Assembly: GCA_034620365.1 (NCBI GenBank)
Contig: JAQGEQ010000002.1
Span: forward strand, 47,589-111,588
Reading direction: 5' to 3'
DNA length: 64,000 nt
DNA from: Pegea sp. RAD2-039
Lineage: Eukaryota > Chordata > Thaliacea > Salpida > Salpidae
Shown: one piece after another, positions 1 to 31,679 of the stretch
Position numbering within the stretch: the first letter of the stretch is position 1
Layout of the letters: each line of letters opens with the position of its first letter
Program-made: the position numbers and the translations under genes
The notes under the pieces: model-generated
Told to the model about the DNA's origin: nothing
Seen by the model: the letters and a program-made list of their open reading frames with translations, nothing else
Databases searched by the model: none

Positions 1-657
1 GTGCATTAAGAGTTCTTTATAGCATATTTAAAACAAATTACAGTAGAATATTTTACCGCATATGTTAATATCTTATCAAGCTAGGTTCGAAGGCGTGGTG
101 GACAGTCGTTATTTGCTAGCTTTGTTAATTTCATGAAGCTCTACATAGGAATAGCTTTAATTTATTTAAATGTATAATTGTTTTATTTTCCATTTGGCAC
201 TCATTTAAGAGTAACTGTGAATATTTAAAGTTTTAAGAGAATATTTTATTCTAATTCTGCTAAATCATTTTGCTTCAATCTTACAAAATATTTTCAAATT
301 TTATTTCTTAAATTTTATAAGTTTAATATCAGATTATTTTAGTTCTTTTCTTAATCCTTAAAAGCAATCTTACATGATGTTTATTAATAAAAAGTCTTTT
401 ACCTTTTCTAAATAAATGTTTATTCCAGTGATTTTCATTGTTTCTTATCATGTTTTTAAAATAATTAATTCTATTTTGAAGTTTGTTTATAGATATTTTT
501 ATGCATTTTTATATTTAGATATACATTTATAAAATAAAATATAAATTAAATAATTTAAACTGCTGTATAAGTTTTATACCAAACCTTTCTTTTTCAATTA
601 AACTTAAGTTAAGCTTATTAATATTTCTTTTATAAACAGACTTAGTAATTGATAATA
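1..657 (+). other. 5' flank of the MBF1-zinc-finger fusion gene
   Basis: No ORF is supported here. Bases 220-657 are matched, inverted, at about 5,761-6,190 and again near 14,330-14,760, so this is the shared upstream region of the leader-exon family. A likely splice acceptor (TTTATAAACAG) lies about 20 bp before the ATG at 658, so the 5' UTR is probably spliced. A segment at about 40-72 resembles sequence about 1 kb upstream of each WIPI-like gene. Confidence 0.5.
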
Positions 658-1235
658 ATGGAAAGTTATCAAGATGATACAGTTGATTTGTGGTTAGAAG
701 AGAATAATTTTGATGTAGCTGAGGAAACTTCTGCAGTTGAATTCTTTCCTCCTGATGAAGAAGGTTGGAGTCCTTCAGAAATAGAACGTGTAAAGTATCA
801 CATTGCAAATTATTATAATGATAAAAAGCAAAATAATGGAAATGATTTTATGACAATGGCTTCACATGTTGATAATAACATCTCTGATATGCCATCTGAA
901 GAATCTGGTGCTTCTACTAGTCAAGGGGGAGATATAAACACTGTATCTTCATCTGAAACCTTTGTAAGTATCTTTATTTTGTTGATTTATGTTTAGTGTC
1001 AAAATGTTAGTTGTTTCTACATATAAAAATAATTATTTGATAAATGATTTAAGTATTATTTTTACTAATCTGTTTGTAATCTTTTATAAACAAATAATCT
1101 AGATTGTATAATTTTATTGGCATTCTTATTTGCTTTATAGGTTTGTAAGACAGAACTAATAGAAAATCCAATTTATTTTCAGCCTAAACAACAAGAAGAT
1201 GTTACTTCTTCTAGATTAGCGGTTGAAGAAGGTAA
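220..1235 (+). repeat. Left arm of large inverted repeat carrying leader exons 1-2
   Basis: This arm is mirrored on the minus strand at about 5,050-6,190. It spans upstream flank, leader exon 1, intron 1 and exon 2 of the MESYQ family. The arms flank about 3.8 kb that holds the two unrelated gene tails and a WIPI fragment. The right arm carries an extra homeodomain-like block within exon 1. Confidence 0.75.
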
Positions 1236-2383
1236 ATTTCAACTTTAAATGATCTTATGATGTTATAATATATGATTTTATTGTTTGTTTATGTTTTTGG
1301 TGTTTGATTTTATAACTAAGTTATTTTAATGTGGAAGGTTTAATATTATGAACTGAGAAAACCTTTGAACTAATATTGTTAAAGTGTTTGATAAATCTTT
1401 TCTTAAACTGGTTTTTATAATTTCAAACTTTTAATAATCTAATTTGTTAATTCTTATTTGTTCTAGTTGCAAACGATATGTATAGTAATACTGACTGGGA
1501 CACTGTTATTTATGTTCATAATTCTAAACTAAAGCCTGGAGCTGCCAAGTCTAAAGCTAGTGTCAATGATTCTTTGAGAAATGGAGGAGCTGACTTAGAT
1601 ACTAGACAGAAGTATAATGTTGGTAGCAATAAGAAGCAAGCTGTATCTAAAGATACACTGAAGCTAGACCAGCAAACTGAAGAGCTTCATCATAACACCG
1701 TTTCTCTTTCTGTTGGAAGTCTGATTCAGCAAGGGCGTCAACAAAAGCAGATGACTCAGAAGGAGCTTGGAACAAAGACCAATGAAATAGCTCAAGTTAT
1801 TAATGAGTATGAAAAAGAAAGTTCTGCTGAATTAAATGTTCATAAGCGCAAACATACCGGTGAGAAGCCTTTCCAATGTAGAATTTGTAGAAAAGCCTTC
1901 AGTCGATCTTGCCATCTTGAAGTTCACTTGAGATCACACACTGAAGAGAAGCGTTTTCATTGTGGAGTTTGTGAAAAAGCTTTCAAACGATCTACCTATC
2001 TTGAAGTTCACTTGAGATCACACACTGGTGAGAAGCCTTTCCAATGTGAAATTTGTGAAAAAGCCTTTAGACAATCTGGCCATCTTGAAGTTCACATGAG
2101 ATCACATACTGATGAGAAGCCTTTTCAGTGTAAAATTTGCGGAAATGCCTTCAAACAATCTACTCATCTGATAATTCATATGAGATCACACAATGATGAG
2201 AAGCCTTTTCAGTGTGAAATTTGTGAAAAAAGCTTTACACAATCAAATAACTTAACCAGACACATCCGATCACACATTGGTGAAAAGCCTTTCCAATGTG
2301 AAGTTTGTGGAAAAGCCTTCAAACAATCTAATAATTTGGTAGTTCACTTGAGATTACATACTGGTGAAAAGCCTTCTCAATAA
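658..2383 (+). CDS. MESYQ leader - MBF1 (truncated) - six C2H2 zinc fingers, chimeric transcription regulator
   Basis: Three exons give an uninterrupted 437-aa frame: 658-963, 1141-1231 and 1467-2383, all with GT-AG borders. Residues 1-136 are an acidic leader of unknown family (DLWLEENNF, EFFPPDE). Residues about 137-254 match MBF1/EDF1: SNTDWDTV, AKSKASVN, then LDQQTEELHH and the Cro/C1-type helix-turn-helix (VGSLIQQGRQQKQMTQKELG, QVINEYE). The MBF1 part stops where helices 4-5 should follow. Six Kruppel-type fingers (CxxC-x12-HxxxH with mostly TGEKPFQ-like linkers) occupy about 257-437. MBF1 normally bridges a transcription factor and TBP; the fingers would supply DNA binding (inference). 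The ATG at 658 was chosen because upstream in-frame codons precede the acceptor. The alternative is that exon 3 alone, starting at 1478, is the gene. Confidence 0.8.
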
Positions 2384-2443
2384 GGAGTTGGTAAAAAGCG
2401 TTTTACAAGGTCTTACAGTTTAGTTAATCAATTAAAATTCTAA
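2384..2443 (+). pseudogene. Relic of a seventh zinc finger after the stop codon
   Basis: The frame continues past the TAA with GKKRFTRSYSLVNQL, which is the second half of a C2H2 finger lacking the Cys pair and the first His. The fusion gene therefore once had at least one more finger and was shortened by a nonsense mutation. Confidence 0.6.
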
Positions 2444-2670
2444 TTACTTTCCATTTTCATAAGTTTGAATTTTTTTAAAGATAATAAACTTTCCTATCTA
2501 AACGTTCAAATCTGAAAATTATTGAAAACTTGCCAAAAATTATTCAACTTTTACAACTACTTTTTTGCACACGACACTGATTTTTTTCTCATCTTTTGAT
2601 ATAAAAAAGTTCTTTAAATTGATAAAGAAATCGAAATGTCGTCGAATAAACGTCATCACAAATTGTAATT

Positions 2671-3380
2671 GTACTTTGTTAAAATCTATTGGAGATAGCA
2701 TCATATCCGTTGTATTTAAATCTTTTAATGTTTTCATGGTAGCAACATCTTTTCTTAACTAGATCAACTTATATCTTATAAGTACCGAAGAATAGTTTTA
2801 ACTAAATTTAAAAAATTTCACAAAAATCAGAACGATGACGTCATAAAGCAATAAAGATAAATTTTAAGATAAAAATGTCGAGGTAATGATGTATAAAATC
2901 GATTTTTGCGCTTTTTAATTTTGCTAATCTCAGAAAAGAGTTTTCCGGTTGAAGCAATAAATACTCGAATAACAGTTCCACGTTCAGAAGCAGTAGCAAT
3001 CATATCACTGTTTAAATCACCACAAATAGCCACCAACTTATGTTTATGGGCTTCAAGTACCATATGAATCTTCATATTCTTAAATCAAAAACTTCTACAT
3101 GCCCACGGTCACAATGATATCCATAAGTCACTAATATTTTCTGTTCTTCTAGAAAGCAAATAGTTCCATTTTTATCATGCATTTGACTCATATATTTCAA
3201 GGATTCATCCTTTGATCTTTCATTTAATCTAAAATTATCTTTAATAATCAATGTGATGGAAGTAAAACGAAAATTTCTATTTATTTCTAATCGGAGATCC
3301 AAGATAACATCAGATTGGATGTCTGGAAAGATAATAATAAATATATTTGAAAAGGATCTTGTTGACCTAGAAAGTTGCAA
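2671..3380 (-). pseudogene. WIPI-like: Scrambled WIPI/PROPPIN-like fragment
   Basis: On the minus strand, 3,295-2,900 encodes the middle of the protein found intact at 26,305 (KDESLKYMSQMHDKNG, YHCDRGHVEVFDL, HKHKLVAICGDLNSDMIATA, ERGTVIRVF). A one-base loss near 3,074 shifts the frame after VEVFDL. The N-terminal piece (ATMKTLKDLNTTDMMLSPIDF) lies downstream of it at 2,760-2,671, so the order is permuted. The segment is about 85-90% similar to the array genes by eye and is clearly non-functional. It lies between two leader-exon genes, linking region 1 to the array family. Confidence 0.8.
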
Positions 3381-3627
3381 TAAAAGTAAATTTCTTAAAA
3401 GGACAGTTTAGCAAGTAACTAATTGATTCAATTAAAAATTTAATTAATTTAAAACTATTTGTTTATTGATAATTCCATTTTATTAATTACAATTCTTTCA
3501 ACTAAAAACTTTTAACCTTTCAAATTAACATCACAACAAATCGAGTGAATGAAACTTTTAATAAATCAACAAAATAAACAATTTTAACAAATAAACAAAA
3601 AATCAAACAAATGAAAGTTAAATAAAA

Positions 3628-5760
3628 TCAGTTGTGAGTTCTCAGATGTTTTTTTAAAACAGAAGGACAATAAAACCCTTTTTTACAAATGCTACAGATA
3701 TTAGGAAAGTTTCTGGTGTGCTTGAAGATTTCGTGTTGCTTCAAATTAGATGAATTCCTAAATGATGTTGAGCAAATCTTGCAATGAAACAACTTCTCGC
3801 CTGTGTGCATGCGTTTTTATTTTATAAGATTACATGATTGCCCAAATGTCCTTCCACATTGATTACAAACAAAAGCTTTTTGCTTCTCGTGAGTAGTACG
3901 AATGTGTCTTTGTTTGTTGCTTTTCAGACTAAAAGATTTTTCGCAAATCTCACATTGATAGGTCTCCTTTAAGTGAACTGACTCATAATGCCGGTAATGG
4001 TTTCTTTTTGTTCCAAAGCTTTTTTCACACAAGTGACAAACAAAATTTTTCACTTTACTATGGGTTGTTTGGTGTAGTTTGAGATTGCTTCTAAAATCAG
4101 TAGAGTAGTCACAGAGATTGCATGGATACTTTTTATCAGTTGGATGTTTTCTTTTAAGATGAAATTCAAAAACCTTCTTATCAGCAAAAATGTCTTCACA
4201 AAACTCGCAGTGGTAAAGATCATCTGCAAAAAATTGTTTTATTACAAAATTAATTTTATTCTAGTACAAGAAACATTATGAAGATATTTTTATACAAATA
4301 ATTGAAAAAGTTTAATTTACTTCTTTTGAGTAATTCAGGATTCCTTTTCAGTTTCTTTACTTCTTTCTGAGGACTGTTAGCTGTGAAAAGTTACTTGTAA
4401 TTATTCATAAGATTGTCTTCGTGACTAATTAGATTAGTTAACTTTTTTGATTTTTTAATTAAAGTAATTCTTAAATAATTTAATTTAATTTTACTTTATA
4501 AATATCTTCTAACATTTGTTTTCATCTTTTGGACCATCTTCTAAATCTTCATGTTCCTTATCAAGAACATTTTCAAGCATTTTTTCATTATCATCTGCAG
4601 AATCCTCATTGTCATCTTTATCACCATCACCAAGAGCATTCTTTATTTGATCTTTATCATCAAGAATATTTCCATCCAAATATCCATAGTCATCATTTTT
4701 AACCTCTTCAACTGAATCTTTATCAACAGAATCATCATCCAATTTATTTTGGTTGTTAGTTTTATTAGTCAAAAGAAGTTGTTCTTGAATGGCTTCAGGA
4801 CATTCTGTAACAATAAGATCAATTGAAAACCAATGATTGCTAGTTCTATTGGTCATGTTAAGGGTTTTAGTGCTGTTCCTGATCAAAACAGATCACTATT
4901 ATTTAATAATAACATATTATCTATAATGCAAATGGGTTACTGTTCGTAACCTATTAAAATAACTTAGTTATAAAACCAAACTAGAAAAACATAAACAAAC
5001 AATAAAATCATATATTATAACATCATAAGATCATTTGAAGTTGAAATTTACCTTCTTCAACCAATAATCTAGAAGAAGTAACATCTTCTTGTTGTTTAGG
5101 TTGGAAATAAATTGGATTTTCTATTAGTTCTGTCTCACAAACCTATAAAGCAAATAAGAATGCCAATAAAATTATACAATCTAGATTATTTGTTTATAAA
5201 AGATTACAAACAGATTAGTAAAAATAATACTAAAACCATCTATCAAATTATTATTGTTATATGTATAAACAAATAAAATTTTGATACTAAGCATAAATTA
5301 ACAAAATAAAGATACTTACAAAGGTTTCAGATGAAGATACAGTGTTTAGATCTACTCTTTGACTTGTAGAAGCACCAGATTCTTCAGATGGCATATCAAA
5401 GATGTTATTATCATCATGTGAAGCCATTGTCAATAAACCATTTCCATTATTTTGTCTTTCTTTCTCATAATGTTGTATAATTTGATATTTTGCATATTCT
5501 ATTTCTAAAGGACTCCAACTTATTTTATTCTGAAGCCTTTTTATGTTAAACCAACGCTGAATGAATTTATATGAAAGGCCAGATTTTTCAAAGAGTTTAA
5601 TTAGTTGATCTTATGGTGGATAAGGGAAAGCACAAAAATAGTTTATAAATTCTAGCTCAATAGTGGGAAGAATAAAATTATCTGCAGGAGTTTCATCAGC
5701 TACAGCATAATTATTCTCTTCTAACCACAAATCAGTTGTAATAACTTGATAAAATTCCAT
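3628..5760 (-). pseudogene. MEFYQ leader with homeodomain-like insert, acidic exon and seven C2H2 fingers (broken)
   Basis: Exons read on the minus strand are 5760-5320, 5142-5052, about 4856-4514, 4380-4321 and 4223-3628. Exon 1 holds a homeodomain-like block (IELEFINYF, then GLSYKFIQRWFNIKR resembling helix 3 WFxNRR) and a TAA at codon 50 (5613-5611). Exon 3 is very acidic (D/E runs, 4,740-4,515). The last three exons join in phase through DENK/SNSPQKEVKKLKRN into seven C2H2 fingers. Finger 5 has a TAA (3819-3817) at the first zinc-binding His. Exon 2 ends in phase 1, but I found no phase-matched acceptor before exon 3, so exons 3-5 may be a separate gene starting at ATG 4856. Read-through or a nearby functional parent is possible; as written it is a pseudogene. 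Confidence 0.65.
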
Positions 5761-6190
5761 TATTATCAATTACTAAGTCTGTTTATAAAAGATATATTAA
5801 TAAGCTTAATTTAAGTTTAATTGAAAAAGAAAGCTTTTGTAAAAAAGTTATATAAACAATTTAAATTATTTAATTTATATTTTAGTTTATAAATGCATAT
5901 CTAAATATAAAAATGCATAAAAATATCTATAAACAAACTTCAAAATAGAATTAATTATTTTAAAATCATGCTAAAAAACAATGAAAATAAAAATCACTGC
6001 AAATACATTTATTTAATAAACATCATGAAAGACTGTTTTTAAGCATTAAGAAAACAACTAAAATAATCTAATATTAATTTTAAAAAATTTAAGAAATAAA
6101 ATTTGATGATATTTTGTAAGATTAAATTAAAATAATTTAGTAGAATTAGAATAAAATAATCTCTTAAAACTTTAAATATTCAAAATAATT
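5050..6190 (-). repeat. Right arm of large inverted repeat (leader exons and flank)
   Basis: This is the reverse-complement match to about 220-1,235, covering upstream flank, exon 1, intron 1 and exon 2. The arms differ by scattered substitutions and by the roughly 100-bp homeodomain-like block present only here. Confidence 0.75.
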
Positions 6191-6524
6191 TTTGAAAGGA
6201 GATTTATTTTTAGATAAATGAAAATTATCTCTTATACATAGAATATAAAGTAGAAAATTCATAGGAAGCAAACTACAATCTTAAGTATAAAAAAGATGAA
6301 ATTGAAGGTGACACGACAGTAGAGAAAGTAAAATTGGTAACGACAACTGTTCACATAAATCAAAAATTTTTTATCTGAAATTAAACTAAAGATTATCCTT
6401 ACCACCCTTTATTTAATTGTTTATCTCAGTGACCTTAAAAATCTGAGCATTTCCACCAAATCTTTCAAAAGTCTTTCACAAACAACAATAGATATAAAAA
6501 CATTATTCTTAAAGCAAAAAATTT
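5761..6524 (-). other. Upstream flank of the third leader copy, duplicated at 14,330-14,995
   Basis: No ORF is supported. The stretch 5,761-6,415 is a direct repeat of about 14,323-14,990 (same strand sense), including a GC-richer motif GAAGGTGACACGACAGTAGA at about 6,303 that recurs near 14,889 as GGTGACGCGACAGTAGA. This may be a shared promoter region (inference). Confidence 0.5.
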
Positions 6525-7155
6525 TTCTCAATTACTAAATCTGTTTAAATAAAAAATATTGATAAGCTTAACTTAAGTTTAATTGAAAAGAAAGTTTTTC
6601 TAAATACCAAAGGTAACAACAAATTTTACAGTATTTCAATAGTATTTTGGTATTTATAAGATCATGAAATTTTTCTGTTTTTGAAAAATTAATGAAAGTC
6701 AAAAAGTTCTTAAATATAAAAAAAGCAAAAAAAAAAAAACAATATGTAAGAAAAAACATCTAAAAAGCCATTAACAAAACTTCTGAACCTAAATATATGC
6801 ACTAAATAAATGTTTGCTTGCATTTAGCTGCTTCAAACTCAGTTTAATAATATATAAAGAGATAAAGCTAGATCAATATGAGCTTTTAACAATTGAACTA
6901 GATATTTAGCAATTATCAGTGGTAAATTTAACACCCTAACTTGATGACAAAAAGTGAAAAATGAAAAGAAATTCTGTTAGAATGGGAACGCCCAAACTCA
7001 AAAGTTTGCTTTTGTAATTATGAAAAGTGAAATAATAATCAAGAAACGACTAGCCTATTCAGTAAAAGCAAAATATATTTTCGAAAATACGGATAATACA
7101 CTGGCTTAGATGTCATTCTGAAATTTTATTGGGGTTTGGCATAGCATAAATTATT
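6525..7155 (+). repeat. Left arm of inner inverted repeat
   Basis: The reverse complement lies at 8,232-8,848. Landmarks shared in opposite orientation include GAACGCCCAAACTCAAAAGT and ACGACTAGCCTATTC. The outer end is the leader-family acceptor region (ATTACTAAATCTGTTTAAAT), so the arm begins exactly where the leader exon would start. Confidence 0.85.
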
Positions 7156-8231
7156 CGTTGTAAAATATATTTGTAAGAAAAGGTTTCTATGTATTAAATT
7201 TGATTGTATTAATTAGATTTTGTATTAATTTTCTAGTACTTTGGGTATGTTGTTATTATGATGTATTATTTATTGGCACGATTATTTAACTATTTAATTA
7301 AATGTTATTACTAAAAAAGTTTATTTTAAATGTAAGATACATATTTCTGATTAAAATTCTTCATTTCTTTCTTTTAATTTGAGGCTTTTTATATTAGTAG
7401 AGTTAATGAGCAAAAGATGTAACACAAGGCATTTCAGAAGTCCTTAAAATATCTAACAGTGAACAATTACATAAAATTTTAATAATATAAAAATAGAAAA
7501 AGTCACAGTTTAGAAATGACAATGTTGGCAATTTTATAACGGTTGTATTTCTTTTTGAACAACGCGAGCAAATCCGACATTACAAATTAAATGCTAATAA
7601 TAATAAATTATTAGATTGCTATATATTCTCTTATAGGTTATTCATGATTTAAAACAAATTTAACATTAAAAATTTAGCTTGAAAGTAAACTGATAAATAC
7701 ATTAAATTAAACTTAAAATTATTTTTGTTTTAATAAGCTTATTATTATTTGCGAAGTAAATTACAAATATATGTAATTATTAACTTATAATGATGAATAA
7801 ATCAAAATTGTGTATCTTAAACTATTTTTAAGTATTTTTGTTTTGAATTAAATCAAACACATTTAATTATACTGAAAAGATTGATATTTTCTTAACAAAT
7901 TTACTTAATAAAACTATAAATCTTTTTGTAGAATAAATTATCTAAAAATCATATAATTTGTATAGATAGGTATTGTGATAAATTTTAAAGTTGTTTATAA
8001 GATATTTAAAAAACTATTTGAAAAACATTAGATTTTTTAATTAAATTTTTTAAGTTGTCATTATATGAATTTCTATTTTTTAAAACATTTTTAGTTTTCT
8101 ATACTTTTTAATAACTTACTACTTTAAATGAATATTGGACTGAGTTTTGCAAATTCTTAGAAACTATAAATGTTTAGAAAAAAGTATATAATTATTAGTT
8201 TAATATTTGAATTAATTTGTTTTCTTTTTTG
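7156..8231. other. Spacer inside the inner inverted repeat
   Basis: This is AT-rich and has no long ORF. Bases about 7,411-7,480 resemble a segment that follows the LINE in every array unit (for example 21,321-21,390): GCAAAAGAT(G/C)TAACACA followed by AACAGTTACATA-like sequence. A short open stretch at about 7,500-7,650 (QFRNDNVGNFITVVFLFEQR) is not recognised. Confidence 0.4.
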
Positions 8232-8848
8232 CCAATGATTTATGTTGTGCCAAATTCCATTAAAATTTAAGAATGACATTTAAAGCAGTTTATTATCCGT
8301 AATTTCGAAAATATATTTTGCTTTTACGGAATAGGCTAGTCGTTTCTTGATTATTATTTCACTTTTCAAAATTACAAAAGCAAACTTTTGAGTTTGGGCG
8401 TTCCCATTCTAAGAGAATTTCTTTTCATTTTTCACTTTTTGTCATCGAATTAGGATGTTAAATTTAACGCTGATAATTACTAAATATCTAGTTTAATTGT
8501 TATAAGTTCATATTGATCTAGCTTTATCTATTTTTTAATTATTAAACTGAGTTTGAAGCAGCTAAATGCAAGCAAACATTTATTTAGTGCATATATTTAG
8601 GTTCAGAAGATTTGTTAATGGCTTTTTAGATGTTTTTTCTTACATATCGTTTTTTTTTTGCTTTTTTTATGTTTAAGAACTTTTTAATTTTCATTAATTT
8701 TTCAAAAACAGAAAAATTTCCTGATCTTATAAATACCAAAATAGTGTAAAATTTGTTGTTACCTTTGGTATTTAGAAAAACTTTCTTTTTCAATTAAACT
8801 TAAGTTAAGCTTATCAATATATTTTTTTAAACAGACTTAGTAATTGAT
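8232..8848 (-). repeat. Right arm of inner inverted repeat
   Basis: This is the inverted match of 6,525-7,155. It ends at the splice acceptor just before the ATG of the leader-MED15 gene, so on this side the arm acts as that gene's 5' flank. Confidence 0.85.
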
Positions 8849-8852
8849 AATA

Positions 8853-10188
8853 ATGGAAAGTTATCAAGATGATCTATTTTTATTATGGTTAGAGGAGAAT
8901 AATTTTGATGAAACTTCTGCAGATGAATTCTTTCCTCCTGATGAAGTAAGTTGGAGTCCTTCAGAAGTAAAGCAAACAGAGTATCACTTTGAAAAATATT
9001 TTGACGAAAAAAACCAAAATAATGGAGATGATTGGTGGAAAGTAGATTCAGATGATGATAATAACATCTCTGATATGCCATCTGAAAAATCTGTTGCTTC
9101 TACAAGTCAAAGAGGAGATCTAAACGCTGTATCTTCATCTGAAACCTTTGTAAGTATCTTTATTTTGTTAATTTAAGTTTAATGTCAAAATGTTAGTTGT
9201 TTCTTTAATTATTATTTTCAACTTTATTCCTGTTAATTTGTTTTTAATATTTCTTGAAAAACGGTTTTCTTGATTTAATTAAATTTGAAATTTGTGACTA
9301 CAGCAGCATCCAAGACCTTCGTCTCCTCATCATCATATGTGTCAGTCGAATTCCAATACGATTGGAAGTACAACCAAGTCTTCTTTGCCCAATCATACAT
9401 TGAAACAACGTACCTTTGGTCCTGTTGTGCAAATATTGAGGTGATTATACAATGTGAGAATTACTTACATACTTTAAATTAGAAGAAATTTCTTTTCCAC
9501 AAACCTTTTTTTTATAAATACTGGTTTTTGTTGATAATTTTCAGACCTGGTATTCTACCAAATAGTAAGTTGATTGCTAATGAAACAGTTCAAGAGATCA
9601 AACAGACTGAAAGTAAAAAGAAGGTTCCAACTGCAATACTTCGTGAAATTACTCGTTTGAGAGGAAAATACAAATTCAAGATTAACCAAAACTGGATGGG
9701 AGCTAGCAACCTGTCTTCACACATTCAGTTCCTCGTTTATCTCGGTATAAGAGTCATTTTCAAACTTTTATCCAATCACAACCGTTCTATTAGTTTAATT
9801 TTCTTATCTTTTAACTTTTTTTCGACTTTGTCATATTTTTAGGTGATTCTCAGTCACCAGCTGTTCCACCAATCCGCATCAACACTCCTCGTGACTACCC
9901 GGAGTCAAGTGCCATCTGGATGGGACTACATAGTCCTGATACCCATCAATTTCAGGATCGATCTACTTTAACTGATACTCAGCGCGATTATAAAAGTTTG
10001 ATTTTTTATTTTTGTTTATTTCTGTTTAAGTTAGTTGTTTTTTTTCAGCGTTTCATGAAGTATTATTAGAAGTGATGAGTGAGCGAATAGAAAACACAGA
10101 AGATTGTTCTAAGCATCATATTTCCGATTTACTAAACATTTGGGAGAGCAGCATCAAGCAAGCGTGTCGAATTGTTGGTCAGGAGTAA
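8853..10188 (+). CDS. MESYQ leader fused to the C-terminal domain of Mediator subunit MED15
   Basis: Five exons form one frame of 308 aa: 8853-9149, 9304-9440, 9545-9744, 9843-9995 and 10049-10188, all GT-AG. Residues 1-99 are the leader (DDLFLLWLEENNFD, EFFPPDE). The rest matches the metazoan MED15 C-terminus in order: KKVPTAILREITRLRGKYKF (VPTVLQGEVARLDPKF-like), PPIRINTPRDYPESSAIWMG, then LLNIWESSIKQACRIV (LLNTWAQSVHQAC-like). MED15 is a Mediator tail subunit contacted by activators; this C-terminal region normally anchors it in the complex. The N-terminal KIX domain and Gln-rich middle are absent. Family knowledge suggests the product could dock in Mediator carrying a different acidic N-terminus; that is inference. 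The leader-to-MED15 junction is phase 0 on both sides. Confidence 0.8.
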
Positions 10189-10215
10189 CATGTGATCGTG
10201 ATGTCGTTTAATACA

Positions 10216-10221
10216 AATAAA
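10216..10221 (+). promoter_or_regulatory. Polyadenylation signal of the leader-MED15 gene
   Basis: A canonical AATAAA lies 28 bp after the stop codon and is followed by a T-rich stretch. Confidence 0.6.
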
Positions 10222-10328
10222 ATTTCTTTGTCTAAAAAGTTTTTTTTTTAATATTAATCATCTACTTCAAATTATGATTTAATTTGACAAAAATTTAGAA
10301 AATTAAATTTTTATTAGAAGCGAAACTT

Positions 10329-10552
10329 CTATTTAATCTTTTTTATTGACAACGATTGTAGGCCATCGTCAATCCATTTCTTTTCTATGTCTTTTACAGT
10401 CTCCTTGGGTTTTCCATTTTTTTTGTTAAAATATTTAATTTGAATCCAATTTTTACAACTTAAAAAGTTGATCTTGAAAACTAATCAAGTTTTTACCTGT
10501 TCTTGGTCAGATAACTCACACTGCTTTTACGTCTGCTTTTACACACAGAAAA
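10329..10552 (-). CDS. 3' exons of an unrecognised minus-strand gene
   Basis: Two exons join in phase: about 10,552-10,497 (ending CKSRRKSSVSYLTKN, donor GTAAAA) and 10458-10329 (SCKNWIQIKYFNKKNGKP, then KWIDDGLQSLSIKKIK and stop). The product is basic and I do not recognise it. The 5' part is not resolvable in the AT-rich sequence above it. It lies tail-to-tail with the leader-MED15 gene, about 140 bp apart. It could be a decayed fragment. Confidence 0.35.
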
Positions 10553-10559
10553 GCAAAAT

Positions 10560-11199
10560 TTTATACTAAAAATACAATTGCTTGATTTGATTTTGATAAA
10601 AATCGATGATTTGTAAAATCTTACCAAAAACTTGAACAAACAGCTATAATTTTTATAATTATTTATCTGTTTACAGAATTAAAATGGCTTCATTTATAAA
10701 ATATTTTATAAGTAATTGAAAACTTTAAATATATATAAAAAGATTTAGAATAAAGATTATTTGAAGCACAATATCCATTAAAGTAATATGTGTACAGTGT
10801 ATACTTGATGAACTTATGATTAATTTAATATATATCAATCCTTTTCAAATAAAAATCATAAAGAAACAAAAACCTGTTCAAGTCAAGTCTGAAAAGATAG
10901 TGAACAAAAAGAAAGTATCTACTCAAAGCAAAAAGTAAAATTTGAACATGTCTGAAGTAATTGAGTTAAAACTAGAACAAAGATTTTAAGGAATAAACTC
11001 TAAAAAAACTATTTATTTGACAAAACATCAAATTTACTTGTTACATGTTATCTTTACCAATTAAACAACATTTTTCCATGAAATACAACTATGAAAAATT
11101 AAGTAACTATTCATATTTTCACATGTAGTTAAAAATATGATAAAAGTTTTTGAACAAATAGAAAAATATATTTTATATAAATGATAGTAAAACAAACAA
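10560..11199. other. AT-rich intergenic stretch
   Basis: Only a short open tail is visible at about 10,859-10,938 on the + strand (KKQKPVQVKSEKIVNKKK then stop). It is basic and too short to call. Nothing else is recognised. Confidence 0.3.
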
Positions 11200-12397
11200 A
11201 TAAATTTTTTTTTGATGGTCTTGATGACTTTTTTTCTTGCAGTAATCGTATCATAATAGGGATCCTTACTAATACTTTTTCTAATATTTGATATCCACTC
11301 ATGCTTTGATTCTGGGCATGGTGCAGAAAATCAATAGCTTGAATGCTTTCTACCTTCAAATACTTTCCCTCCCAGATCTGACTTTGAAATTTTTATAATA
11401 TCTGATATAGTATTTGCAAGTAAAAAAAATTCAAAACAATTTTGTTTTTTTTGGATCAGAAACCTCTCTTGAAGATTTTCTAAAGATATAACTCCTTTAG
11501 GTTCTTTATCTTTTGTATAATCAAAATAAAACAGATATTGTTTATCTAAAACAAACCATCTAAGTTTCCAAGTCTTTTAACGGCTTGAACCTTGTTTAAA
11601 CAGCTAGCCTTGTATATCAGGATCAGAAAAGTGAAACAAATTTTTATCATATTTACGTACTTTAAATGGTCTTTTTTTGATACTATCATAAATTTTTGTC
11701 AACATTATAGAAGATAAATTTTTTCCTTTATCAATATTTTGATTCATATTTATAAATGCTTCTTTGGAGGTTTGATTTTTAGGATTGATATTAGGATTAT
11801 GTAGACTTGCCTTCAGCATAATGTCAGAAAATGACAAAATAAAGCAAGTCTCAGCACATGAGAAAATTCCACGGTCAGAATAAATAAACCAATTAGCAAA
11901 TGACTCCATTATCCGAGAAATGATCTGATCTTCAGGCATGATCTTTCGGCAGTCTAAAGTTGCAAAGAAATATTCTTAAAGCATCATCAAGCTTTTCTTT
12001 TGCAAAGTTATTATGCTCAACAAACTGCTGTAAGACTTCTATATTAAACTCATTATTTTCTCCAAGATAATTACCAATAGCAGTTTTACTCTATCCCTTT
12101 TCATTACTTTTGAATAAAAAGTCAGCAACATTTCATGGTTTATTTATAACTACATCACATTCGATTAACCAAGTCATTCATTTTTTAAGATTTTCATTAA
12201 AATATTTCTTGCCAGGAGTAAGCTTCTTGATATAGTTAGACTCTTTGTATCGATCCATATCTTCCAACTGTGTCATCAGCATCCTGAATTTTTTTTAATG
12301 AATTCAATAGAGCTTAACAATTCTGACTTCAACTGACGAATATCTTTAACGCTTTCACTTCTTCTTCATCTAAATCTAATGCACTTGTATCTGCCAT
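11200..12397 (-). pseudogene. CYTH: Intronless cytohesin (Sec7-PH ARF-GEF) pseudogene
   Basis: The minus strand shows the whole cytohesin layout without introns. It has a start-like ATG at 12397 and a degenerate coiled-coil lead (about 12,390-12,210). The Sec7 domain has AIGNYLGENNEFNIEVLQQF, ALRIFLCNFRLP, ISRIMESFANWF, CFILSFSDIMLKASLHNPNI and INMNQNIDKGKNL. The PH domain has KTWKLRWFVLDKQYLFYFDY, KDKEPKGVISLENL and SAPCPESKHEWISNIRKS. At least five stops and a frameshift near 11,945 (just after FRLP) break it. Cytohesins exchange GTP on ARFs at membranes. The catalytic Glu of the FRLPGE loop is not preserved in frame. Full length plus absence of introns points to a retrocopy made by LINE machinery (inference); a poly(A) tract at the lower-coordinate end is only hinted at. 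Confidence 0.85.
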
Positions 12398-12660
12398 TTC
12401 TATTTCACTTATATCTGTTAAGTGATTTTAACCCTATTTATAAAAATAATTCGAATAATCAATGATAAAAATGTGATAATAATTAAAATATATTTCAAAT
12501 AGAATCTACTATAAACTTATACTTACATCTTTAATAGCATTTAAAAACAAAATTAAACCAGAAAAAATATAAAATTGATATAATATATATTTCAATTAAA
12601 TTGATATTTTTCCAGATCGGTTCGAGTAAAGTAACTGCAGACAATGTGGTGGAAAGGTGG

Positions 12661-12709
12661 AAAAGCTGCTGAATTGCCGAAAGATGGCAACCCACCTGTT
12701 AGTGATAAA
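12661..12709 (+). repeat. 49-bp local duplication, copy A
   Basis: This copy matches 12,910-12,958 with one mismatch (A/G at base 12 of the unit). Confidence 0.9.
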
Positions 12710-12909
12710 AGTTAACTGCTAATTTCTTTGATAATTATTTGAAATGATTTATTTAATAGTTTGTAAAGAGATGAAATTTATACTGATTTATTTAGAATTC
12801 CTCATTTACAAAACCTTTTGTTTTTAGATTTGCATATTATCAGTTTAATTATGGAAAGAACTATCAGTAATAAAGATCAACTTGAGAGCAAAGAGACTAC
12901 ACTTTGCAA

Positions 12910-12958
12910 AAAAGCTGCTGGATTGCCGAAAGATGGCAACCCACCTGTTAGTGATAAA
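12910..12958 (+). repeat. 49-bp local duplication, copy B
   Basis: This is the partner of 12,661-12,709, about 250 bp downstream in the same orientation. Confidence 0.9.
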
Positions 12959-13015
12959 GATCAAGCTGTAGTTGGTGACACAAAACTACAGAAGTTGTTT
13001 TGTCTGAGGCAGTGA

Positions 13016-13679
13016 GTGGTGGAAAGTTTTGTTGCAAGGACTGTTTGAAATAAATTTCTAAATTTGGTAATTATTTAAAGATTACAATGGTAGAAAACGA
13101 TGGACGAACATATACAAAAATTCAGACTTTTAACAACAACCGAAATCATGGATCTAATCATATTTTTATGACATCTTCAAGCTGCAGGAGATGATTATCA
13201 TCATCTACATCTTCATCTAGTGTCTGCTGACTGCTGGTAAGCTTGTACTTGAAGTTGCATGTACGAGTAGTAAGCGGCGTTGCTTAATTCATTGGTTTGT
13301 TTCGCTGTCATGACAACAAGTTAGTATAAAGAACTGCTTCGAAAAAAATCGCACTTACTCAATTCAACACCATTTTGTGGAGTCGTGGTCGAGTCCACTG
13401 TTGGTATTGGCTACCCTATGGTTGAGTTTGTTGAAAGCAAATACAAAGTCTTATAGGAACAAAGATTCAATTCAAACCTGGTAAGTTCCCTCAAATTGAA
13501 ACTCAAAAAGTCTTGATTGTCTTACACTCAGTCGGGTGTGATTGGAAAAGGAGGAGATTTTGATTCCTGATCAAAACAGATCACTATTATTTAATAATAA
13601 TATATTATCTATAATGTACATGGGTTACTGTTAGTAATAAATATTTTATTATTTGTAATTACTTATAACACTAGAAACA
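13016..13679. other. Unassigned stretch with possible exon remnants
   Basis: A moderately GC-richer piece at about 13,355-13,445 (+) reads STPFCGVVVESTVGIGYPMV before a stop. I do not recognise it. Bases 13,566-13,635 repeat 4,879-4,940 (CCTGATCAAAACAGATCACT), which lies beside the acidic exon of the third leader copy. Confidence 0.3.
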
Positions 13680-14322
13680 TTATAATTTTAGTTTAGAAGT
13701 TGTACTTAGAACAGTTTTACTTTCCAACTTTCTTCTTTTAATCTTTGGTTGATTAAAACAACTTTCACATCCACCACAATCTTTACTATCAGTTTTTGAT
13801 CCTTTGAAATCAAATTTGTTTTTTAAATTTAAATATTTTGTTGAATATAAACTTGTATCACAATTTCTTGGTCAGGCAATAATATTAACAGTCATTAGAT
13901 TATTAAAAGTTTAAATTTATAAAAACCAGTTTAAGAAAAGATTTATCAAACACTTTAACAATATTAGTTCAAAGGTTTGCTCAGTTCATTATATTAAACT
14001 TCCAATATTAAAATAACTTAGTTATAAAATCAAACACAAAAACATAAACAAACAATAAAATCATATATTATAACATCATAAGATCATTTAAAGTTGAAAT
14101 TTACCTTCTTCAACAATAATCTTGAAGAATTGAAATCTTTTTGTTGTTTAGGCTGTAAATAAATTTGGTTTTCTATTAGTTATGCCTTACAAATCTATAA
14201 ACCAAATAAGAATCCCAGTAAAATTATAAAAATTAGATTATTTACTTATAAAAGATTCCAAATAGATTAGTAAAAATCTCTTCTAAACACAAATCAACTG
14301 TAATAACTTGTAAAACTTCCAT
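13680..14322 (-). pseudogene. Fourth leader copy (MEVLQ), internally deleted, with a Cys-rich tail
   Basis: The ATG at 14322 opens MEVLQVITVDLCLEE. The sequence then jumps into what is intron 1 in the other copies (about 14,275), removing most of exon 1 and the donor. Exon 2 is recognisable at about 14,193-14,104 but frameshifted. Downstream, 13,859-13,680 is open and ends CGGCESCFNQPKIKRRKLES and about a dozen further residues. Its DCGGCxxC pattern resembles the second half of a CXXC DNA-binding zinc finger; it is too short to be sure. The upstream flank is a direct repeat of 5,761-6,415. Confidence 0.55.
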
Positions 14323-21968: not shown

Positions 21969-22422
21969 TTGGTGCAATGATTTTAAAATGTCTAGGTCCA
22001 TTGGAGTTCCTGTCCAAATGTTTACATCTACAATCGACTTCTTATGGTACAGACCACCTGATGTATTATTTGGAGATACAAAGTACACAACCACTATTGG
22101 TAGTTGGAGTGCTAGTTGCACCTTTGCTGAAACATCAAATGTTGGATCTCCTTTGTTTCCTGGTGATGATGAAGGTGATCAAATAAGTCACATATTTCGT
22201 GTCTTAGAAACTCCTACTATCTATTATTGGCCTGGTGTTCAAAATCTTCCCAAATACAAACTGTTTCCTACATATCAATTTAATCCTAAGTGGTCATCAC
22301 TTGCACCGATCCTGTCTAAGGTTGGTCATGACCTTTTATCTCAACTGGTTGTTTGTAATCCTGATAAAAAGATAACTGCAGATGTAGCTCTTAAACATCC
22401 TTCTTTTATTAATACCTTGTAA
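21969..22422 (+). pseudogene. CDK-like protein kinase C-lobe fragment, unit 1
   Basis: One open exon begins after an AG acceptor and encodes about 150 aa. It matches the CDK activation segment to C-terminus: DFKMSRSIGVPV (in place of DFGLSRSFGVPV), LWYRPPDVLFG (WYRAPEVLLG), WSASCTFAE (WSLGCIFAE), PLFPGDDEGDQISHIFRVLE, WPGVQNLPKYK and ITADVALKHPSF. The DFG glycine is Lys and APE is PPD, so Mg-ATP handling is doubtful. The N-lobe is not present in the unit. The methionine at 21,988 is inside the DFK-M motif and not a true start. It is either a decayed CDK or the 3' exon of a kinase whose 5' exons lie elsewhere. Confidence 0.75.
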
Positions 22423-26304: not shown

Positions 26305-27411
26305 ATGGCACTAGTTAATGGAAGTTCTCCTCAATTCTTGTCACAAAACAAGAAGTATCTGGCTACCATGGAAACATTAAAAGATTTAAATAGAATGGAT
26401 ATGATGATCTCTCCAATGAATTTTGACAAAGTACAAATAATCACTCTCCAGTCAGTTACTGATCTATATATGAAGGAAATATCTAATTTGAATGATGAAG
26501 AACAAATTAAGTCTCTCGCCAAATGGTGTGCCACAAAAATGCTGCTGAGTCATAGAGAAAATTCGGACATTAAAAAGTCCATGCTGATTGTGGTTGCTAC
26601 AGAATCAGATGGTTACCTTGTAATGGTGAACACAACCATGGATCCTCTGAATATTTATGATTATCTGCCATATATTAAAGTAACAGCAACTGATTATCGG
26701 ATTACATTGATTACTAAAGATAACTTTAGAATGTATGAAAGATCAAAGGATGAATCCTTGAAATATATGAGTCAAATGCATGATAAAAATGGAAGTATTT
26801 GCTTTCTAGAAAAACAGAAACTATTAGTGACTTATGGATATCATTGTGACCGTGGGCATGTAGAAGTATTTGATTTAAAAACTATGAAGATTCGTATGGT
26901 ACATGAAGCCCATAAACATAAGTTGGTGGCTATTTGTTGTGATTTAAACAGTGATATGATTGCTACTGCTTCTGAACGTGGAACTGTTATTCGAGTATTT
27001 TTCGCTTCAACCGGAAAACTCTTCCGTGAGCTTAGGAGTTCTTTAGTTGGAGGAACGATTAATGCACTTGCTATTAGTTCGGATTGTAAAGTAGTAGCAG
27101 CTATTTACTCTGATGGACTTGTTAATTTATTCAAGCTACCAACGTTTTGCGAGCAGGATGCCGAAAAATCTATGGTTGTTGATAATATGAGCAGACTTTT
27201 ATCAAGTTATCTACCATTTTCTGAATACATTAGTCAACTTCCTGTATCTAAGTCGTTTTATGCTGAAGCTGATGTAACTGTTGTTCAATTATTTAAGGAA
27301 ACTCATTACGTTCTTATGGAGTTGGTTAAAAAGAATCAGCAGAAAATATTTTATAAAATTAATTTACGGAATACACAAATTGATTCTGTTGATGCCGTTG
27401 ACGTAATTTGA
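26305..27411 (+). CDS. WIPI-like: WIPI/PROPPIN-like beta-propeller protein, copy 1
   Basis: A single 368-codon exon. Residues about 130-280 match blades 4-6 of WIPI3/WDR45-type PROPPINs: GHVEVFDL, EAHKHKLVAICCDLNSDMIA, TASERGTVIRVF, KLFRELRSS, then ALAISSDCKVVAAIYSDG and LVNLFKLP. PROPPINs bind PI3P/PI(3,5)P2 on autophagic membranes through an L/F-R-R-G motif; here the motif is LRSS (243-246), losing the second Arg and the Gly. The N-terminal 90 residues do not look like standard blades. Length is usual for the family. The ATG at 26305 is preceded by a spliced 5' UTR acceptor. It differs from copy 2 at residues 59, 183, 200, 210, 212 and 267. It is intact and probably expressed, but phosphoinositide binding is doubtful. 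Confidence 0.85.
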   Translation: MALVNGSSPQFLSQNKKYLATMETLKDLNRMDMMISPMNFDKVQIITLQSVTDLYMKEISNLNDEEQIKSLAKWCATKMLLSHRENSDIKKSMLIVVATESDGYLVMVNTTMDPLNIYDYLPYIKVTATDYRITLITKDNFRMYERSKDESLKYMSQMHDKNGSICFLEKQKLLVTYGYHCDRGHVEVFDLKTMKIRMVHEAHKHKLVAICCDLNSDMIATASERGTVIRVFFASTGKLFRELRSSLVGGTINALAISSDCKVVAAIYSDGLVNLFKLPTFCEQDAEKSMVVDNMSRLLSSYLPFSEYISQLPVSKSFYAEADVTVVQLFKETHYVLMELVKKNQQKIFYKINLRNTQIDSVDAVDVI

Positions 27412-30035: not shown

Positions 30036-31654
30036 TGGATTATTTCAAATGCTGTAAATTCCTTAAATATCTTGGCAAGTGTGGTTTTTTGTTGACTCTA
30101 TATAAAGGTATGAACTTTTTAATTGACTCATTAACAATGTTAGTAAACCTCGAGTAGATATCATTGATGTCTTCGGTAGAGTTGAAAACAGAAATCCAGT
30201 CAACACCTGATAAAAACTTGTTTATACTGTTATAATTTCCACGATAAAAGTTCCGTATGCTTGGAGTTTTAACGTTCGTAGAAAAAGTTTGTTGGAGCTT
30301 GAATTCAATCATGTTGTGATCGCTTGTCAGAGCAAAAGGTTCATTTTGATCAACGTAGATAACGTTATCAGGTTTTGATGTGATGAGAAGATCCAAAGTA
30401 TTACCACTAACTTGGGTTGGAAAAGTAACCATCTGAGATAGATTATTGGCATCAAGGAAATTTACAAAGACATGACTCAGATTGGCTAAATTAGTTTTGT
30501 CTCCATTCAAATTAAACATTTTTCCATTGAATGCTAAATTTGGGTTATTCCAATCAATTCTACTAAAATTAAAATCCCCGAGAATATACATCTCAGGACA
30601 AACAAGGCTTTTCAGAACCTTCAATAAGGCCTTAATAGTAACCTCATCGTTAACTTTAGACGGTGGTAGGTAGGTACATATAAAGCGGGAAAACTTAGAC
30701 TTTGAGTAATGAAAATTGAAAGCAATAATCTCAAATCCTGGGCAATCAATGGTATTTATCTTAATTCGTGAAATCATGGTAGCCAGTGATGTTTTATAGA
30801 TTACACAAACACCGCCGCCTCTATCAAACAGTCTATCACAGCGCAAAGCACGAAAAAGATCGCTGTCATCCAGAAAGGAGTCAGGATAAAAGGGTTTCAA
30901 CCAAGTTTCGGTAATGAAAACAAATGTAAAATCTTGAGAAAGCAAAAGATCTTTCAATTCGAAAATTTTGTTGACAATTGACCGTGCGTTGAAAAACATA
31001 CCTAATATAAAAGAAAAATTGTCTTTTTGACACTTGTAAGATTTGGTGGTAGTCTTCTGTGTACTGTTATCTTGGGCTGGAAGCATAGTATTAATAATTT
31101 TGTGCGAAGAGAGGTTGAATAAGGGTGATGTGGGTCCAGTGGTTATTTTGCACTTCCGTTTTTTGAAAAGACCTTCACAATCTGTAAAGCCCATGGTGGA
31201 CCTCGAACTTTGTATTTGAAACCAGTTGGTTGCTCTTTCTGATTTCGGCTGTACGCCTCTTTTAGAAGACGCTTATTTTCTACGCGATCATCTTCACACA
31301 TATCATGTGCTACTCTGATGCCCTGGAATTTTTCGTCCTGCTTAAGTTTATACAGCTTAGCAAGAAACTTACGTTTGTCCCATCTTTCCTGAAAGGACAC
31401 TTTTAACGGTCTTTTATGATTTGATCTTTTTGCCCCGAGTCTGGTCATTGAAACTTTTGGAGTGTCCACAGAACCAAGGCCTTGAGTGCACATTTGATTA
31501 AAAGTCTTGATGTCATCGTCTTTATCAGTCTCAGGGACACCAAAGATGATGACATTGTTTTCTCTATCCTCCCGGTCCAGATTAAGTTTCTTGTGCGTGT
31601 CAGTAACCTTCTTGGCAAGAAGTTGCACCACGCTAGTATTTTTTTCGGATCCAA
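30036..31654 (-). mobile_element. Inverted 5' part of a younger LINE copy (ORF1 to endonuclease)
   Basis: On the minus strand this is ORF1 followed by the endonuclease of ORF2, both open, so it is less decayed than the + strand LINE around it. It ends abruptly at about 30,036, just after the endonuclease. It joins the + strand LINE tail at about 31,654, with the reverse transcriptase core missing in between. Confidence 0.85.
30040..31194 (-). CDS. LINE ORF2 endonuclease domain (truncated before RT)
   Basis: The 384-codon frame contains the apurinic/apyrimidinic-type endonuclease of CR1/L2-like elements in order: MFFNARSIVNKIFELKDLLL, VFITETWL, DRGGGVCVIY, YLPPSKVND, YILGDFNFSRIDW and TSDHNMIEF. 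All key N, E, D/N and H positions of this nuclease family are visible. The endonuclease nicks target DNA to prime reverse transcription. The frame overlaps ORF1 by 52 bp in another frame, as in other LINEs. It stops soon after LPRYLRNLQHLK where a full ORF2 would continue into RT, so it cannot mobilise by itself. Confidence 0.85.
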   Translation of the reverse strand: MGFTDCEGLFKKRKCKITTGPTSPLFNLSSHKIINTMLPAQDNSTQKTTTKSYKCQKDNFSFILGMFFNARSIVNKIFELKDLLLSQDFTFVFITETWLKPFYPDSFLDDSDLFRALRCDRLFDRGGGVCVIYKTSLATMISRIKINTIDCPGFEIIAFNFHYSKSKFSRFICTYLPPSKVNDEVTIKALLKVLKSLVCPEMYILGDFNFSRIDWNNPNLAFNGKMFNLNGDKTNLANLSHVFVNFLDANNLSQMVTFPTQVSGNTLDLLITSKPDNVIYVDQNEPFALTSDHNMIEFKLQQTFSTNVKTPSIRNFYRGNYNSINKFLSGVDWISVFNSTEDINDIYSRFTNIVNESIKKFIPLYRVNKKPHLPRYLRNLQHLK

Positions 31655-31679
31655 CACTATCATCAGACTTTAATGGCAT
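31143..31679 (-). CDS. LINE ORF1-like nucleic-acid-binding protein with chimeric start
   Basis: A 178-codon frame resembling CR1/L1-type ORF1 proteins: a short coiled-coil-like lead (KKVTDTHKKLNLDREDRENN), NNVIIFGVPE (RRM-like start), RLGAKRSNHKRPLKVSFQER, IRVAHDMCEDDR and YKVRGPPWALQIVKV (C-terminal domain). These proteins chaperone LINE RNA. The first nine codons (MPLKSDDSV) are not ORF1 sequence; they are the antisense of the adjoining + strand RT segment at 31,654-31,679. The true N-terminus was lost at the junction. Confidence 0.7.
   Translation of the reverse strand: MPLKSDDSVGSEKNTSVVQLLAKKVTDTHKKLNLDREDRENNVIIFGVPETDKDDDIKTFNQMCTQGLGSVDTPKVSMTRLGAKRSNHKRPLKVSFQERWDKRKFLAKLYKLKQDEKFQGIRVAHDMCEDDRVENKRLLKEAYSRNQKEQPTGFKYKVRGPPWALQIVKVFSKNGSAK

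Follow-up and report, generated by a model that had tools for sequence, protein, structure and literature searches.

A 64,000-nucleotide (nt) stretch of the genome of the salp Pegea sp. RAD2-039 (contig C363, GenBank JAQGEQ010000002.1, positions 47589-111588; hereafter the window) carries four related copies of one sequence, A at +658, B at -5760, C at +8853 and D at -14322. The genome spans 105.7 Mb in 387 contigs, and G+C across the window is 28%. A first, sequence-only reading took these copies to be an acidic leader exon with its promoter, captured repeatedly by inverted duplication and attached to four different regulator tails. A BLAST of the window against itself finds all four copies where they had been placed. 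A is 85.6% identical to B over 536 nt and 91.7% over 568, 85.8% identical to C over 438, and 86.6% and 90.9% identical to D over 507 and 396, respectively; because the E values are 4e-145 or lower, the similarity is not due to chance. The alternating orientation (+,-,+,-) and the presence of exon 2 in A, B and D, with none in C, were likewise read correctly. What is shared is less uniform than had been described: the common upstream flank fails for C, which has only 77 base pairs in common with A and beyond that another block, and the common exon 1 fails for D, where 46 nt are left, while that of B is longer than A's by 135 nt and than C's by 144 nt. We find that the leader is not a free promoter or activation module. 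It is exon 1 of a large multi-copy family of homeodomain-acidic-C2H2 genes, that is, zinc-finger genes that carry a divergent homeodomain as accessory domain at the N-terminus.

Copy A, on the forward strand, opens with a homeodomain-less leader of 102 codons (exon 1, 658-963, donor gtaagt, phase 0), continues into a 91-nt exon 2 with a phase 1 donor (1141-1231) and ends with exon 3 (1467-2383), which encodes an MBF1 body, then six Pfam zf-C2H2 stretches and a stop. Spliced, it forms an open reading frame of 437 amino acids, and the earlier assignment of its tail to MBF1 (PF08523, 8.2e-14) and C2H2 fingers is confirmed. The MBF1-derived block (1457-1814, +) starts 10 nt before the acceptor, and the parent has the same acceptor. 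This block is 91.6% identical to the sole other MBF1 match in the genome (C48:105685-106023); it ends short of the MBF1 C-terminus, running into the fingers. A DNA copy and a retrocopy are indistinguishable for MBF1, given that the frame of the parent is unbroken and that no intron lies within the copied coding part. The finger array (1852-2403, +) has its nearest relatives, at 79-80%, in TGEKPF-type finger genes on contigs C3 and C8. The contig of the related MBF1 gene also holds a run of stop-bearing exon-1 copies (C48:631-46280). Beside A, at 2543-3407 on the reverse strand, lie pieces of a WD-repeat gene (PROPPIN, 7.6e-10), of which three 368-amino-acid open copies stand in large repeats of the window at 26305, 37803 and 49780 (+).

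Copy C, also on the forward strand, joins a homeodomain-less leader of 99 codons with a phase 0 donor (exon 1, 8853-9149) to four MED15 exons (9304-9440, 9545-9744, 9843-9995 and 10049-10188), and its spliced frame is open over 306 amino acids; here too the tail had been rightly identified, as the C-terminus of MED15 (PF21539, 3.2e-15). The MED15 block (9188-11283, +) matches a locus on contig C42 in three pieces, at 90.8, 93.9 and 96.0%, introns and 3' flank included. Since these are present, a retrocopy origin of C is ruled out; the order is exon 1, the start of intron 1, and then MED15-locus DNA from 9188. A shorter MED15 piece at C363:37556 is 97.3% identical to 10009-10379. The block upstream of C (8234-8854, +) also lies upstream of the other examined homeodomain-less copies (loci L002-L005), and an inverted arm of it, 91% identical and without the leader, is found at 6521-7155 (-). 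Of inverted duplication as the maker of the fusions we see no sign; both joins, in A and in C, are intronic, and the MED15 join is at the DNA level. Beyond the MED15 block, at 11334-11975 (-), are cytohesin-like fragments with Sec7 (2.5e-25) and PH (6.4e-9) domains.

The tails of B and D are of another nature. B (3628-5760, -; exons 5760-5320, 5142-5052, 4804-4514, 4380-4321 and 4223-3628) is a normal five-exon gene with two internal stops, a pseudogene as assembled. Its acidic exon and fingers, which had passed for a captured tail, are the ordinary tail of the family, and the extra part of its exon 1 encodes the homeodomain body absent from A and C, the one homeodomain of the window and a broken one. 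D had been described as a leader with a Cys-rich tail; it is truncated. Its exon 1 stub of 46 nt (14277-14322, -) is joined straight to intron 1, so D has no leader protein, and the same truncation is found at three other loci (L014, L015 and L023). An exon 2 remnant follows at 14105-14194 (-), and then the Cys-rich frame of 63 amino acids (13683-13871, -), which also turns up in normal copies, in the interval separating exon 2 from exon 3, and is not part of the reading frame that agrees with the splice phases. This frame has a weak CXXC zinc-finger match below the cut-off (PF02008, E 0.033) and could be either a dead exon or a terminal exon used as an alternative. That exon 2 is spliced to it in normal copies was considered and rejected, as by reading only a poor frame-keeping acceptor was found; the acceptor ttacag ahead of the acidic exon fits phase and frame in 13 intact copies. 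The idea of chimeric regulators thus stands in part: A and C are in-frame chimeric reading frames, and a third type exists outside the window, but two of the four tails are not foreign. Elsewhere in the window, a 144-amino-acid frame resembling the C-terminal part of a protein kinase recurs at 21988, 32977 and 58238 (+; Pkinase 4.2e-9 for the first), and a LINE-like endonuclease frame (Exo_endo_phos_2, 1.1e-12) with a 178-amino-acid frame upstream lies at 30040-31679 (-).

The gene model of the family derives from copies across the genome. A DNA search with window positions 300-1200, in which 40 of 114 candidates were scored, returned at least 77 matches; merged, they stand for 43 places, of which a few are upstream pieces only. 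Twenty genomic stretches around these matches were compared, 22 copies were aligned and their splice phases were then analysed. The result is a five-exon gene with splice phases 0,1,1,1: exon 1 (441 nt) encodes the homeodomain and a linker, exon 2 has 91 nt, exon 3 is acidic (in locus L012, 55 of 138 residues are D or E), exon 4 (60 nt) is basic and exon 5 (596 nt) encodes seven C2H2 fingers. Among the 18 aligned rows in which exon 1 is complete, 13 are free of stops before the terminal one and are called intact here, the others being L010, L013, L022_2010, L028 and copy B. All introns are GT-AG in 12 of the intact rows, the thirteenth (L022_9786) having AC at the exon 2 acceptor; the acidic exon of the intact rows measures 339-513 nt, with lengths that differ by multiples of three. 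Outside the window, most examined copies are alike for about 3 kb past the ATG.

The genome-wide search with the leader that the sequence-only reading had proposed does find it in many places, but as the front of this larger family. With one exon-1 protein as query (150 of 155 candidates scored, so that the counts are lower bounds), we obtained at least 134 matches. Stop-free matches over residues 1-147 number 34, on 14 contigs; two more span these residues with one stop, one of them being B, and many of the remainder bear stops. There may be fewer distinct genes than matches, since several pairs score equally and some contigs may be allelic. With this genome alone searched, the copies, which are clustered, may or may not be a lineage-specific expansion.

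The front domain was recognised by Pfam and by a profile search of PDB sequences. The exon-1 proteins of L026 and L012 match Homeobox_KN above its cut-off (8e-6 and 2e-5) and the Homeodomain model just under its own. A profile built from the 13 intact rows retrieves 23 PDB sequences at E<=0.1, all of them homeodomain proteins and the best being PBX1 (2.7e-4); they include an AFP enhancer-binding protein and two LAG1 homologues, which we take to be homeodomain proteins. The recognition helix reads WFNMKR in nine and WFNKKR in four of the 13 rows, with W, F and R invariant; these are W48, F49 and R53 of the homeodomain numbering, in which Asn51 is the usual base-contacting residue. Judged by sequence, these residues of helix 2-3 and the significant profile match place the domain in the homeodomain superfamily. 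Opposite the Asn of PBX1 stands M in nine rows, K in four and Asn in none, and two relatives outside the cluster, L042 (WFEKKR; K) and L041 (WFSRKR; R), likewise do not have it. Since Asn51 is replaced, the homeodomain is predicted to have lost its DNA reading. L042 matches Homeobox_KN above the cut-off (3.8e-6), and in L041 a homeodomain-like stretch scores below it (0.034). The latter stretch belongs to a 544-amino-acid single-frame protein (L041:503-2134, -), a possible old relative of the family, beside a frame that is presumably YL1/VPS72-like. In total, 71 homeodomain matches were counted in the genome, whose gene content likewise points to an animal; searches with rotifer and nematode spliced-leader sequences, the TTAGG repeat and COX1 did not place it further. 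For KRAB and ZAD, Pfam gave no match to E 10 with the two exon-1 proteins or to E 1 with exons 1-4 of one copy.

The leader of A and C belongs to a sub-group. Compared with normal copies, its exon 1 is without 135 nt in frame, 45 codons that span the homeodomain, and C is without nine further nt. In a tree of 29 rows, rooted at the midpoint only, the homeodomain-less rows form one group of six (support 100/100), which is most simply explained by a single loss of the 45 codons. Within it C pairs with L002 (98/90), and A stands outside the other five (97/95). The acidic and finger frames of L002 are open and of the normal kind. Given that C pairs with a copy that has a normal tail, the tails of A and C were, most simply, changed separately and after the loss of the homeodomain. 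That the homeodomain-less form is ancestral is not favoured, the outside relatives L042 and L041 keeping a homeodomain or a homeodomain-like stretch. In a third kind of fusion, an E/Q/R-rich coiled-coil repeat precedes part of the homeodomain-less leader in frame at eight loci, six of them stop-free (L022:4799-5077, +, and seven more; contigs C251, C203 three times, C370, C363 twice and C369). Long frames on C23, C238, C278 and other contigs contain similar coiled-coil repeats.

To the fingers we applied pairwise counts of nonsynonymous and synonymous differences per site (pN and pS) over the 13 intact rows (78 pairs, which are not independent). The fingers overall give a pN/pS of 0.50. Helix positions -1, 2, 3 and 6, the DNA-contact residues, reach 1.49 (pN 0.305, pS 0.205), a faster change than at silent sites, and the other finger sites, which are conserved, 0.31 (pN 0.071, pS 0.227). 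In permutations with random sets of 28 finger sites, the pN of the contact sites was reached in 0 of 20,000 draws; omitting the zinc ligands and core positions likewise gave 0 of 20,000. Position -1 is the highest (pN 0.395, pS 0.120). Measured against the silent rate of all finger sites, contact pN is 1.36 times as high in all 13 rows (bootstrap 0.976) and 1.97 times pS in eight young copies (bootstrap 0.995). The excess of amino-acid change at the helix positions that an arms race would leave is thus found, clear in the young copies and marginal in the older ones. For the homeodomain pN/pS is 0.63, and for exon 2 it is 0.80.

Taken together, we hold it to be probable that the leader comes from a family combining C2H2 fingers with a homeodomain that is without Asn51, that a homeodomain-less sub-group arose within this family, and that A and C were made from the sub-group by in-frame exon shuffling. 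In such a family the fingers would choose the DNA target, and the homeodomain with the acidic linker would serve as effector or interaction parts that recruit partners. A moving target, for example transposons or satellite DNA, may drive the change of the fingers, as has been proposed for families of the KRAB and FiNZ type. The sub-group would then have lost the 45 codons, after which DNA of other genes would have landed in introns 1 and 2 of two such genes in a repeat-rich cluster. Because the phases matched, the frame carries on from the first exon or exons, to MED15 in C and to MBF1 with foreign fingers in A. The predicted products would put the acidic leader on MBF1 plus fingers and on a fragment of the Mediator tail. 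The shuffling steps, loss of the homeodomain and entry of foreign DNA into a phase-matched intron, are directly readable because the fusions are young and relatives of the donors are still in the genome.

Several observations weigh against parts of this account. For the homeodomain, L012 scanned as a 336-amino-acid protein scores 22.7 with Homeobox_KN, below the cut-off of 24. The older copies, five in number, show a contact pN of 1.07 times pS (bootstrap 0.643), and exon 1 outside the homeodomain has a pN/pS of 0.94-1.37, which is near-free evolution. The copies compared are moreover mosaic: exon 1 of L021 and L024 is 99.8% alike and their fingers 90.6%, a gap that suggests recombination or conversion between copies. 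With regard to purifying selection on the fused parts, the MBF1 part of A differs from its relative by 16 nonsynonymous and 14 synonymous changes, a pN/pS of 0.30 that is not polarised, and the MED15 coding part of C differs from the C42 copy by 19 and nine (0.58), with ratios of 8:1 in exon 2 and 4:1 in exon 4. The C42 copy itself (C42:749281-752916; L030, L032 and L035), read with the splice sites of the window, goes off frame after the first shared exon, which has 136 nt there and 137 in C. It may therefore not be a healthy parent, whether through sequencing error, other splicing or damage to the gene.

One may ask, do the fused frames of A and C have any function? They could equally be neutral by-products, chance fusions in a duplication-prone cluster whose frames are open only through their youth, a possibility that we rate as evenly balanced and that fits with the family model. 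Copies B and D are broken, as are the many stop-bearing members among the exon-1 matches; the same 15 kb contains the Sec7/PH and WD-gene fragments, and the counts for A and C do not establish selection. Set against this, A reads open for 437 codons and C for 306, both with GT-AG splice sites, despite an 8% difference between A's MBF1 block and its parent and 28 differences in 361 sites between the MED15 introns of C and those of C42. The low ratio for MBF1 also speaks against neutrality, but it partly reflects the parent. A fuller version of the family model, in which the DNA-blind homeodomain acts as an effector or pairing domain of a genome-defence-like finger family and, in addition, the homeodomain-less offshoot is a source of new regulators through repeated shuffling onto MBF1 and MED15, we put forward only tentatively and regard as rather doubtful.

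It appears improbable that promoter and acidic activation leader travel as one mobile unit that inverted duplication has captured again and again. Three unrelated partners (MBF1 and fingers, MED15, the coiled-coil repeat) are indeed joined to the homeodomain-less leader or to a part of it, and the leader's N-terminus is acidic and hydrophobic as the sequence-only reading noted, with 13 D or E and no K or R in the first 38 residues of A. But the leader normally belongs to a complete gene, the ends inspected by eye showed neither a fixed position nor target duplications, of the four tails one (B) is native to the family and another (D) a truncation, and the DNA that moved includes the tails, MED15 and MBF1. 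Least probable of all is that the whole unit is a transposable element carrying a homeodomain-finger gene: dozens of copies lie on many contigs, and similarity to L026 often begins near -490 and in some copies stops near +3640 from the ATG, but the ends vary between pairs, the copies are clustered with flanks to -1732 co-duplicated in some pairs, no transposase was seen by eye among the listed open frames of four copies (not all frames being searched), and, as far as examined, the similarity is not confined to a mobile element, given that inspection by eye of 12 left and seven right ends and of the pairwise extents of 16 copies, with no dedicated terminal-repeat search, revealed neither common ends nor a target-site duplication.

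The family model, a finger family with a homeodomain front, can be compared with several known systems. ZFHX, ZEB, ZHX and HOMEZ proteins likewise combine homeodomain and C2H2 fingers in one protein, and the exon-1 proteins here have weak Pfam Homez matches (0.018 and 0.23), with ZFHX-type chains among the PDB matches. Those genes, however, are old, few-copy developmental genes, whereas the family described here has one short, divergent N-terminal homeodomain, seven C-terminal fingers and dozens of similar copies. A literature search by title or abstract opening, with most subscription journals outside its coverage, returned no homeodomain-C2H2 expansion. As to the fusions, exon shuffling through phase-matched introns is a known process and the present cases are alike, with both joins intronic and the frame kept; only the partners are new.

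The closest parallels are the KRAB-ZNF family of tetrapods, the FiNZ-ZNF family of cyprinid fish and the ZAD-ZNF family of insects, which are alike in having an N-terminal accessory domain, a linker, C-terminal fingers and clustered young copies. One study (PMC10547256) reports that contact residues change in KRAB genes and in part of the FiNZ clades, two of which show enrichment at base contacts; in it the fingers of dipterans are said not to track transposons, and the stem 'homeo' has no occurrence in its main text. For ZAD genes, another study reports positive selection in a few only (PMC7655104), so that on positive selection and on transposon tracking the likeness to ZAD-ZNF is looser. 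The family differs from all three in its accessory domain, a homeodomain without Asn51 that has no KRAB or ZAD match, and it raises the question whether its fingers bind the repeats that fill its clusters. KRAB, ZAD and FiNZ domains are already known as front ends of fast-evolving finger families; a homeodomain in that role, if true, would mean that a DNA-binding fold of ancient developmental use can be put to new use in such a family while lacking its key residue for DNA contact.

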